DNA of 64,000 bases from Silvibacterium dinghuense (GTDB lineage: Bacteria; Acidobacteriota; Terriglobia; Terriglobales; Acidobacteriaceae). The notes below the pieces were generated by a model. That model had not been told where the DNA came from. It saw only the letters and a program-made list of their open reading frames with translations, and made no database searches. The first letter of the stretch is position 1, and every line of letters begins with the position of its first letter. Positions 3,863 to 7,017 of the stretch are shown here, piece by piece. The translations under genes were made by a program, and so were the position numbers. Location: contig NZ_SDMK01000002.1 of NCBI RefSeq assembly GCF_004123295.1, forward strand, positions 248,001-312,000. The letters run 5' to 3'.

Positions 3863-5113
3863 ATGCCGGAGATTCATCGCAGGAAGACCGTCACGGTCAA
3901 GGTAGGAAACGTTCGAGTGGGTTCGGAGGCGCCGGTGGTGGTGCAGTCGATGACCAACACGGACACAGCCGACGTTGCGGGCACGATTCAGCAGGTCGCA
4001 GCGCTGGCTGCAGCCGGTTCGGAGCTGGTTCGTGTGACGGTGAACAATGACGAAGCGGCGCAGGCCGTGCCGCATATCGTGGAGGGCCTGGATAAGCTGG
4101 GCATCCACGTGCCGATCATCGGGGACTTCCACTACAACGGGCACCTGCTGCTGAAGAAATATCCGGATTGCGCCAGGGCGCTGGCGAAGTACCGCATCAA
4201 CCCCGGCAATGTCTCCGTAGGCCGCAAGAACGACGACAACTTCCGCATCATGATCGAGTGCGCGGTTGAGAACGACAAGCCGGTGCGCATCGGTGTCAAC
4301 TGGGGCTCGCTCGACCAGGCATTGCTGACGCGCATGATGGACGAGAACTCAAAGCTGGCCGAACCGGCAGATACCCGCGACGTGATGATGGAAGCGATGT
4401 GCCGCTCGGCGCTCGACTCCGCTGCTGCTGCCGAGCGTTATGGCCTCGGTCACGACAAGATCATCATCAGTGGCAAGGTCAGTAACGTCCGAGACCTGAT
4501 CGACGTGTACGAGATGCTTGCCGGCCGCTGCGACTACCCGCTGCATCTGGGTCTGACTGAAGCGGGCATGGGCATGAAGGGCATCGTGGCTTCGACCGCG
4601 GGCCTCTCGCCGCTGCTGCTCAAGGGCATCGGTGACACCATTCGTGTTTCGCTCACCCCCAAGCCGGGCGGCGACCGTACCGAGGAAGTGCTCACCGGCC
4701 AGCAGATTCTGCAATCGCTCGCCATTCGCAGCTTCACCCCGCAGGTCACCGCCTGCCCGGGTTGCGGACGTACGACGAGCACCTACTTCCAGGAGCTGGC
4801 CGAGCAGATTCAGAACTACCTGCGCGACTCGATGCCGGTATGGCGTCAGCAGTACCCCGGCGTGGAAGAGTTGAAGCTGGCGGTAATGGGCTGCGTGGTC
4901 AACGGGCCCGGCGAGTCGAAGCACGCGAACATCGGCATCTCGTTGCCGGGCACCTTCGAGGAGCCCAAGGCGCCGGTCTACGTGGATGGCCGCCTGATGA
5001 CGACCCTGCGCGGCGACACCATCGTGGCCGACTTCCGGAAGATTCTCGATGAGTACGTACAGAATCGCTACGGTTCAGGTGAACCGGTAGAGCAGCTGGT
5101 GGAAGTGCATTAG
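3863..5113 (+). CDS. ispG: 4-hydroxy-3-methylbut-2-enyl diphosphate synthase IspG
   Basis: A 416-residue enzyme of the non-mevalonate isoprenoid pathway. It reductively converts 2-C-methylerythritol 2,4-cyclodiphosphate to HMBPP using a [4Fe-4S] cluster and an external reductant. The N-terminal barrel begins [14 protein letters not shown], with [12 protein letters not shown] matching the family. The cluster motifs CPGCGRTTS (around residue 297) and [17 protein letters not shown] (around 341) lie in the C-terminal domain. The length fits the bacterial two-domain form. The ATG at 3863 is preceded by a TGAGGA-type SD. A strong terminator follows at once, so it appears to be monocistronic. It is transcribed divergently from the beta-propeller gene. 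Confidence 0.97.
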
Positions 5114-5204: not shown

Positions 5205-5867
5205 ATGAGCGAAAAGCGCTGGGCAGAAGTGGATTCTTATCTGGATAGGCTCCTGGTGGGCGATGATGCTGTTCTCGAGGCTGCGCGGGCAGCCGGTCTG
5301 GAGGCCGGTTTACCGGATATCGCCGTGTCTCCGAGCCAGGGCAAGCTGCTGTATCTGTTGGCTCGGATGCAGAAGGCTGCCAGGATCCTCGAGATCGGAA
5401 CACTCGCCGGATACAGCACGCTGTGGATGGCTCGCGCTCTGCCTGCGGACGGACGTCTGATCACGCTCGAGGCGGATGCGACGCATGCTGCCGTGGCGCG
5501 TGCCAATTTCAAGGCCGCAGGATATGCGGATCGGATCGAACTGAAACTTGGAAGAGCCATCGAGACACTGCCAAAGCTCGCGAGTGAAGCGCCGTTCGAC
5601 CTGGTGTTCATCGACGCGGACAAGGCCAGCATGCCCGAATATTTCCAATGGGCGTTAACGCTGTCTCGCCCCGGAGCTGCGCTGATCTTCGACAACGTAG
5701 TGCGCGACGGCCGCGTAATCCATGCGAAAAGCAGCGATCCGAACATCCTGGGTGTGCGGCGTTTGAACGAGATGCTGGCTGCCGAGAAACGTGTGTCCGC
5801 GACCTGCATCCAGACCGTGGGCGGCAAGGGTTACGACGGCTTCACGCTGGCAATTGTCGAGGGATGA
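5205..5867 (+). CDS. Class I SAM-dependent O-methyltransferase, family 3
   Basis: A 220-residue protein of the caffeoyl-CoA/catechol O-methyltransferase-like family, which transfers a methyl group from S-adenosylmethionine to small hydroxylated acceptors. The SAM-binding motif ILEIGTLAGYST lies at residues 61-72, Glu89 in LITLEAD should bind the SAM ribose, and FIDADK at 135-140 carries the metal-binding Asp typical of this Mg-dependent group. The length is normal. An AAGGA SD stands 7 nt before the ATG. The gene sits between the ispG terminator and a convergent alcohol dehydrogenase gene only 7 nt away. The natural acceptor cannot be told from sequence. Confidence 0.9.
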   Translation: MSEKRWAEVDSYLDRLLVGDDAVLEAARAAGLEAGLPDIAVSPSQGKLLYLLARMQKAARILEIGTLAGYSTLWMARALPADGRLITLEADATHAAVARANFKAAGYADRIELKLGRAIETLPKLASEAPFDLVFIDADKASMPEYFQWALTLSRPGAALIFDNVVRDGRVIHAKSSDPNILGVRRLNEMLAAEKRVSATCIQTVGGKGYDGFTLAIVEG

Positions 5868-5874
5868 GCGGACA

Positions 5875-6873
5875 TCAGGGCACGACGACCGCGGCTCCAT
5901 CCACCGCGTCGTTACGCACAGCGTCGAGGGCCCGATTTACTTCGGTGAGGGAAAAGACCGTGGTCCGGGGTCGAATGCCGATCCGGTGAGCGAGAGTGAC
6001 AAAGTCCGTTGCGTCCTGCCGCGTCATGTTGGCTACGGAACGGATCTGTCGCTCTCCCCAGAGGAGTTTGTCGTAGTCGAACGGAGGAATGCGGTCGAGG
6101 TGAATGGCATTGATTGCGACAATGCCGCCCTTGCGCAGAGAACCGAGTGCGGAGATAACCACGTCTCCGCTCGGAGCGAAGGTGACGGCGCGGTCGAGTG
6201 GAACAGGCGGATATGCGAGGGCATCTCCAACCCAGGTGGCACCGAGTTCGCAGGCGAGTTGGCGGTGGGATTCGCCACGCGTAGCAACATAAACCTCGCA
6301 ACCCCAATGCTTCAGAACTTCAATGGCAAGATGCGCCGAAGCACCGAAGCCATAGAGTCCGACGCGGTCGCCAGGTTCGACTTCGGCGACCCGCAGACTG
6401 CGAAATCCGATGATGCCGGCACAGAGCAGCGGGGCGAGATGGATGGCATCCACTTCTTCGGGCAAAGGAATGCAGAAGTCGGCGCGGGCAAGCGTATATT
6501 CCGCATAGCCTCCGGGCACGGAGTAGCCGGTAAAGGTCGGATTGTCGCAGAGGTTTTCGTGACCTTTCCGGCAGAGAAGGCATGTCCCATCGATGCCGCC
6601 CATCCACGAAACGCCGACACGGCGACCAATAAGATTTGGGTCTGCACCGGAACCGGCTTGCTCAACGCGGGCGACAATCTGATGTCCGGGCGTGATGGCA
6701 TTATGCAGTGGCGGCAGTTCGCCGGCAGTAATGTGCAAATCCGTGCGGCAGACGCCACAGGCTTCGACGCGTAGCAGAAGCTGCCCCGCAGCAGGAACAG
6801 GAATGGGGATTTCTTCAAGAGCGAGCGGTTCGCGATTGACGGGATCGGGATGGTGAAGAACGGCGGCTCGCAT
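5875..6873 (-). CDS. Zinc-dependent alcohol dehydrogenase, MDR family
   Basis: A 332-residue medium-chain dehydrogenase that oxidises alcohols or reduces aldehydes with NAD(P). Catalytic-zinc ligands are visible in ACGVCRTDLH (Cys42) and TPGHQ (His64). The structural-zinc loop reads DGTCLLCRKGHENLC, with Cys98, Cys101 and Cys109; Asp stands where the first Cys of the usual four is expected, a variation I believe also occurs elsewhere in this subfamily. The Rossmann motif is GLYGFGASAH. The start MRAAVLHHPDP at 6873 fits the family; a longer frame to 6930 would run into the tRNA gene. No SD is evident. The tRNA-Arg gene lies 34 nt upstream on the same strand. Confidence 0.9.
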   Translation of the reverse strand: MRAAVLHHPDPVNREPLALEEIPIPVPAAGQLLLRVEACGVCRTDLHITAGELPPLHNAITPGHQIVARVEQAGSGADPNLIGRRVGVSWMGGIDGTCLLCRKGHENLCDNPTFTGYSVPGGYAEYTLARADFCIPLPEEVDAIHLAPLLCAGIIGFRSLRVAEVEPGDRVGLYGFGASAHLAIEVLKHWGCEVYVATRGESHRQLACELGATWVGDALAYPPVPLDRAVTFAPSGDVVISALGSLRKGGIVAINAIHLDRIPPFDYDKLLWGERQIRSVANMTRQDATDFVTLAHRIGIRPRTTVFSLTEVNRALDAVRNDAVDGAAVVVP

Positions 6874-6907
6874 GGGATTTCGATACGCCAACAGGGAAGT
6901 GGTGATG

Positions 6908-6984
6908 TGGTGACCGGGGCAGGATTCCAACCTGCGACCTTGGCGTTAGGAGTGCCCTGCTCTATGCAACTGAGCTACCCGGCC
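6908..6984 (-). tRNA. tRNA-Arg (CCT anticodon), CCA encoded
   Basis: Read on the minus strand: a 7-bp acceptor stem (6984-6978 with the stretch before the discriminator A, including one G-U pair), a D-arm with GCTC/GAGC, an anticodon loop CTCCTAA giving CCT, a T-stem GCAGG/CCTGC, discriminator A and an encoded CCA at 6910-6908. A20, C35 and U36, known arginyl-tRNA identity elements, are present. Oddities: D-loop position 19 is C rather than G and T-loop position 56 is G rather than C, so the usual G19-C56 tertiary pair would be reversed. The anticodon stem has G27/A43 and A31/C39 mismatches. It is likely a real gene because the acceptor and T stems are intact. Confidence 0.85.
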
Positions 6985-7017
6985 ACATAGAGTCAAGTTT
7001 ACAACGAGATGCAGGTG

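Follow-up and report, generated by a model that had tools for sequence, protein, structure and literature searches.

A tRNA-Arg(CCU) with C19 and G56 in place of the G19-C56 elbow pair in Silvibacterium dinghuense

The tRNA-Arg(CCU) gene and its elbow bases

The stretch of DNA analysed here, referred to as the window, comprises 64,000 nucleotides of the Silvibacterium dinghuense genome (contig NZ_SDMK01000002.1, positions 248,001 to 312,000), and the coordinates below are counted from its first letter. ARAGORN predicts a tRNA-Arg gene with the anticodon cct at 6908-6984 on the minus strand, and the Rfam tRNA model RF00005 aligns to 6911-6984 (-) and scores 53.5 bits, above its gathering threshold of 29, which assigns the gene to the tRNA family. 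Read on the minus strand and divided into its structural parts, the sequence is GGCCGGG TA GCTC AGTTGCATA GAGC A GGGCA CT CCT AA CGCCA AGGTC GCAGG TTGGAAT CCTGC CCCGGTC A CCA, in which AGTTGCATA is the D-loop and TTGGAAT the T-loop. The features of the gene and its surroundings are the following.

3863-5113, plus strand: a gene that we take to be ispG from its protein sequence; tRNA-Arg(CCU) lies near ispG in several relatives
5205-5867, plus strand: O-methyltransferase gene, used as synteny context
5875-6876, minus strand: zinc alcohol dehydrogenase gene directly downstream of the tRNA, used as synteny context
6908-6984, minus strand: tRNA-Arg(CCU) gene, 77 nt including the encoded CCA (ARAGORN and Rfam); no other CCU tRNA was found in the genome
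6928, minus strand: G56 (ordinarily C56), T-loop partner of the tertiary pair, from the sequence, Rfam and comparison with the genome's tRNAs
6941 and 6957, minus strand: A43 opposite G27 (6957), a mismatch
6945 and 6953, minus strand: C39 opposite A31 (6953), a mismatch, A.C or A.G in all 9 distinct Acidobacteriaceae-type C19-G56 sequences
6948-6950, minus strand: anticodon CCU (ARAGORN), which reads AGG and includes the arginine determinants C35 and U36 (PMC9976931)
6965, minus strand: A20, the main bacterial arginine determinant (PMC9976931), which is kept
6966, minus strand: C19 (ordinarily G19), D-loop partner of the tertiary pair, on the same evidence as G56
6996-7001, minus strand: TAAACT, a hexamer resembling a -10 element a short distance upstream of the tRNA, noted by eye and unscored
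7218-8369, minus strand: gene of a GGDEF protein, upstream of the tRNA

By eye, TACACT, TAGACT or TAAACT is found at a similar upstream distance in several relatives, though it is absent in some.

The window tRNA lacks the canonical elbow of G19 and C56, a pair that PMC6337575 and PMC11996679 call invariant or rank with the best conserved features of tRNA, and carries C19 and G56 instead, so that the initial annotation, which had read both exchanges from the sequence, is borne out by ARAGORN and Rfam as well. The two bases are complementary, as they are in all 33 distinct sequences of this type, and would be expected to pair in the RNA. The residues associated with arginine identity are present: A20 is described as the main determinant in bacteria, with C35, U or G at 36 and A or G at 73 as further determinants (PMC9976931), and the window tRNA has A20, C35, U36 and A73, together with the CCU anticodon of bacterial tRNA-Arg(CCU).

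The genome yields 46 Rfam tRNA matches, among which the arginine anticodons are ACG, CCG and TCT in addition to the CCT of the window. All 44 other distinct tRNA sequences combine a D-loop GG with C56; a 72-nt "tRNA-Pro" predicted by ARAGORN only, outside the Rfam matches, was excluded from this comparison. A normal second tRNA-Arg(CCT), which would have spoken against the first interpretation of the locus, was found neither among the 46 matches nor in a scan for a CCU anticodon with a T-arm. The N-terminal domain of ArgRS has one match in each of the nine genomes of the genus, that of the window included, which implies that a single enzyme must charge tRNAs with both types of elbow. The codon AGG is rare, accounting for 8 of the 3897 codons in ten window ORFs, and the genome also contains a tRNA-Arg(UCU), which can read AGG through wobble.

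A decaying or silent gene could be suspected from this rarity of AGG, from the Rfam score, the 41st of the genome's 46 matches, and from the two anticodon-stem mismatches, G27/A43 and A31/C39, to which attention had been drawn at the outset. Both mismatches are present as described, and only the second sets the gene apart. Among 71 distinct sequences (33 of the C19-G56 type and 38 ordinary ones), positions 27 and 43 are non-paired in 17 of the 33 and in 28 of the 38; being often unpaired in both types, 27-43 is a loose pair of tRNA-Arg(CCU). The 31-39 mismatch occurs in 9/9 Acidobacteriaceae-type sequences and in 0/38 ordinary ones, the other 24 C19-G56 sequences being paired there, and judged from this comparison it is a conserved feature of the Acidobacteriaceae C19-G56 clade and no sign of decay. 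Outside these two positions every stem pair is formed in all 33 C19-G56 sequences, with compensatory variation such as that at 28-42, which is C-G in eight of the nine Acidobacteriaceae-type sequences and G-C in the window, and A20 and U20a are kept in 71/71 distinct 73-mers. The window gene is, moreover, the only CCU tRNA found in its genome, and its type is conserved across genera. We therefore rejected decay as the main reading and consider it highly improbable, in agreement with the initial annotation; the stems and arginine determinants are those of a gene that is not decaying.

Coupling of positions 19 and 56 and distribution of the C19-G56 type

The 74 distinct full-length tRNA-Arg(CCU) sequences that we collected comprise 41 with G19/C56, 33 with C19/G56 and none with a mixed combination; they represent 253 loci from overlapping collections, which are non-independent and from which truncated and 3'-half copies were left out. 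Many of these loci (120 from genomes and 23 viral) were retrieved with a search for C19 and G56, and the absence of mixed sequences is an unbiased count only for loci from scans blind to position 19, to position 56 or to both. One such scan used a D-loop pattern that places no constraint on position 56. It matched in 36 of the 396 genomes of Acidobacteriota covered (in 9 of 210 genera); of the 30 loci inspected among these 36, 29 are complete, and every complete one has G56 and the anticodon CCU.

Viral contigs contain C19/G56 in 23 stretches and G19/G56 in none. C19/C56 occurs there in 45 stretches, 42 of which have either a shifted D-loop register (GGC) or a G following C19, a potential partner of C56, as judged by reading the viral D-loops listed; what is left are L302 and L307, which share one sequence, and L297, whose D-stem is unpaired. 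The combinations A19/U56 (at least 120 stretches) and U19/A56 (46 stretches) are frequent there too, which shows that pairing is kept, rather than base identity. Two viral contigs (L145 and L156, with 25 and 22 ARAGORN genes, respectively) each carry a tRNA-Arg(UCU) with C19/G56 and a tRNA-Arg(GCG) with U19/A56, and L156 additionally carries a tmRNA.

Taken together, these sequence comparisons indicate that pairing at 19-56 is under selection, whereas its orientation is able to flip. The claim that the two changes compensate each other is upheld by the absence of mixed forms in the 74 distinct sequences and by the viral counts (23 C19/G56, 0 G19/G56), and none of the relatives read shows independent, unpaired changes at 19 and 56. 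The stronger proposal of the initial annotation, selection on an altered elbow, is retained in part: the data speak for selection for a paired 19-56, while they do not indicate that the inverted orientation itself is favoured, and the flip may be neutral.

Within the Acidobacteriaceae, the scan for a CCU anticodon with a T-arm covered 398 genomes, 270 of which gave a match, with G56 in many of the matches listed for three genera (g51, g81 and g83). In the genus of the window, seven of the eight other genomes have a CCU match, and all seven have C56. Twenty regions of the family were fetched, and all 12 full-length G56 copies in them carry C19, the others being five 3'-half copies, one copy truncated by the end of its contig and two regions with other matches. 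The same C19-G56 tRNA is thus common to several genera of the family, and the pair also occurs, on different frameworks, in tRNA-Arg(CCU) of Blastocatellia and Brevundimonas. Six further genomes, themselves picked for C19/G56 (Terriglobus roseus, Edaphobacter modestus, Acidobacteriaceae KBS 146, two Brevundimonas and one Blastocatellia MAG), have G56 in all of their CCU matches; five have a single match, and Brevundimonas albigilva has two, one being a 3'-half copy beside an integrase. A sample of Caulobacteraceae gave a CCU match in 91 of 99 genomes, with G56 in 10 of these. The presence of the same pair in many separate assemblies rules out chance or an assembly error behind C19/G56.

A scan of 84,980 species for C19 with G56, under any anticodon and with one D-loop geometry, found at least 120 stretches, and the 120 matches listed are 116 tRNA-Arg(CCU), 3 tRNA-Arg(CCG) and 1 tRNA-Gly. 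They are spread over Caulobacteraceae (45), Acidobacteriaceae (31), Blastocatellia of several ranks (17), other Acidobacteriota (14) and other Alphaproteobacteria (7), and the remaining six, mostly MAGs that may be contaminated bins, are isolated records from other groups or without placement. In three Acidobacteriota loci (L175, L176 and L237), a tRNA-Arg(CCG) combines C19/G56 with A57 (TTGAAGT).

An enrichment of arginine tRNAs among inverted pairs, suggested by 119 of the 120 listed genome loci, was considered and set aside, as the search pattern itself fits many arginine tRNAs. Three of the six ordinary tRNAs that fit it in the genome of the window are tRNA-Arg, and so are 63 of 124 distinct ordinary tRNAs in the viral control, among the matches listed; against this control, viral C19/G56 sequences (9 of 18 distinct) are not enriched, while A19/U56 (78 of 101 distinct, among the matches listed) and U19/A56 (27 of 31 distinct) are richer in arginine tRNAs. 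The weight on CCU within arginine in genomes (116 of 119 among the matches listed) stands, though few origins may underlie it. We found no report of a natural bacterial C19-G56 pair in the open-licence PMC literature, as far as its texts were covered; a mention elsewhere is possible, and this lack of prior reports is weak evidence of novelty.

Origins of the type and possible drivers of the inversion

The C19-G56 sequences have distinct frameworks, namely GGCCCGG with A31 in Acidobacteriaceae, GCTCCCG in Blastocatellia and GGCCCCG in Brevundimonas. A tree of the 71 distinct sequences with columns 19 and 56 removed needs at least five changes of state, three of which are forced by well-supported branches, and a single C19-G56 clade is weakly rejected (AU p 0.0345); the tree was built on 71 columns and is poorly resolved, 29 of its 68 inner branches being open. 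Three origins, one in each of the groups named, are likely on these alignments, and the 19-56 flip has probably happened more than once.

The gene order in the window is ispG, O-methyltransferase, alcohol dehydrogenase and tRNA. A congener (G006) has the same three genes followed by an ordinary tRNA-Arg(CCU) beside the dehydrogenase gene on the opposite strand, and in another (G004) the ordinary tRNA lies 1.4 kb from the dehydrogenase; in three more (G001, G003 and G008), none of nine window proteins was matched in the stretch around the ordinary tRNA. Outside the genus, the C19-G56 tRNA immediately precedes ispG at five loci (L377, L378, L379, L381 and L389) and lies within about 0.6-1.4 kb of it at four (L380, L383, L384 and L390), and at one (L382) no ispG was found within 7 kb. 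The window ispG is 87-93% identical to those of the five congeners compared and 76-82% identical to those of other genera; unlike its ispG, the window tRNA groups with the C19-G56 type of other genera. The neighbourhood of the tRNA looks old, and the allele in it differs from that of the congeners. The window copy belongs to the Acidobacteriaceae C19-G56 type with its A31 mismatch, and this type either arrived by transfer or was retained here, the ordinary tRNA being present in the other congeners examined.

A mosaic origin would account for both the flip and the 31-39 mismatch: an integrative element brings a foreign 3' half with G56 and a different 39-43 strand, which would be mismatched with the 5' half of the host, and position 19 then adapts. 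Integration at tRNA-Arg(CCU) is seen in both Acidobacteriaceae and Brevundimonas, and in lineages with the ordinary as well as the C19-G56 elbow; 3'-half copies lie 16-26 kb from the intact gene in five cases (L424, L425/L426, L427/L428, L429 and L430/L431); since such elements supply a 3' half that includes position 56, they offer a route for a coupled change at 19 and 56. All five copies start in the anticodon stem, those of the first four cases lie 16-25 kb from the intact gene and carry G56, tyrosine recombinases (PF00589) adjoin the partial copy in all three C19-G56 cases tested (L424, L427 and L429), and the restriction of the 31-39 mismatch to the Acidobacteriaceae type, with 0/38 in ordinary sequences, points the same way. 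The sets read contain, however, no full-length G19/G56 chimera, the inner anticodon-stem pairs match, positions 31 and 39 are paired in the other 24 C19-G56 sequences, and the genome of the window has no 3'-half copy, with a single match in the CCU-anticodon and T-arm scan. We consider a mosaic origin unlikely on this balance.

One congener locus (L053:1501-1546; G001 C1:5125933-5125978) contains the 3' portion of a tRNA with a CAU anticodon, to which no 5' half could be recognised; ARAGORN makes no prediction there, and the fragment has the appearance of an attachment-site copy.

We regard it as rather improbable that the inverted face is under positive selection through an altered contact with a reader of the elbow that benefits the cell. 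Candidate readers would be RNase P RNA, the L1 stalk, enzymes that modify the T-loop, a nuclease that binds the elbow, or an integrase for which the T-loop sequence is required. The likely recurrence of the flip on at least three frameworks and the predominance of tRNA-Arg(CCU) among the listed genome matches would fit it, as would the contact of Arg130 of L1 with G19, which stacks on A2169 according to PMC3602588, and the existence of enzymes that read C56 itself (PMC5039416, PMC7912444). It is opposed by the richness of the search pattern in arginine tRNAs, described above, and by the dozens of G19-C56 tRNAs that the same partners must also handle in the same cell. Only tentatively can it be put forward that bacterial tRNA-Arg(CCU) has acquired the inversion repeatedly and under selection, either because integrative elements that use the gene as attachment site exchange its 3' half or because some reader of the elbow profits from the reversed face.

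Probable tolerance of the inverted pair and comparison with known tRNAs

The reading that we favour, and to which we give good though not full confidence, is that the window encodes an intact, probably working and sole tRNA-Arg(CCU) whose 19-56 pair is inverted but still Watson-Crick, the flip being tolerated. Its expression, folding and charging are inferred from the sequence, and on this basis it probably works in the cell. A C19-G56 pair would be isosteric with G19-C56 and preserve the L-shaped fold and the flat elbow surface, which RNase P, the 23S rRNA of the ribosome and T-box RNAs are described as using (PMC4810234). The single ArgRS would charge the inverted tRNA through A20, C35 and U36, and the tRNA would read AGG, with tRNA-Arg(UCU) partly redundant by wobble. 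Tolerance of the flip would follow from the reliance of arginine charging on A20 and from this partial redundancy; AGG being rare and readable by tRNA-Arg(UCU), an unpaired intermediate could have been tolerated as well. Charging through A20 and redundancy explain permission for the flip, not a preference for it, and redundancy leaves unexplained that no other redundant C34 isoacceptors outside arginine appear among the 120 matches listed. The recurrence of the flip may reflect this tolerance and redundancy, or the exchange of tRNA halves by integrative elements.

Work on individual enzymes is pertinent to how far such tolerance extends. A plant protein-only RNase P, an enzyme other than the bacterial one, is given as cleaving 0% of a C56G pre-tRNA and 90% of a G19C pre-tRNA (PMC5039416), G19C is described as having next to no effect on human ELAC2 (PMC11996679), and 2-thiolation of U54 in Thermus is reported to require C56 (PMC7912444). 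These results concern other enzymes or organisms and elbows other than the inverted pair; they show that some partners read C56 itself, and pairing alone may be insufficient for every partner. A natural tRNA that is the sole one with its anticodon and has the inverted pair, and whose type is also present in the culturable Terriglobus roseus, makes it possible to test directly whether the machinery recognises base identity at the elbow or only the shape of the pair. It also indicates that the 19-56 pair can flip even though the one-step intermediates, C.C or G.G, are unpaired.

Compared with ordinary bacterial tRNA-Arg(CCU), the window type shares the length, the stems, A20-U20a, the anticodon and the G15-C48, G18-U55 and U54-A58 pairs, and it differs in having C19-G56 for G19-C56, with the A31.C39 or A31.G39 mismatch as a further difference of the Acidobacteriaceae type. 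A G19C/C56G variant with the same inverted pair has reportedly been made on tRNA-Leu. According to PMC3602588, which cites others for it, aminoacylation of a G19C/C56G variant is unchanged; that variant is laboratory-made, whereas the window tRNA is natural and the sole CCU isoacceptor. The unusual tertiary pairs of eukaryotic tRNA-Ala described in PMC7566577 are likewise an isoacceptor-specific departure at conserved tertiary positions, although other positions are affected in them and G19=C56 is called conserved there.
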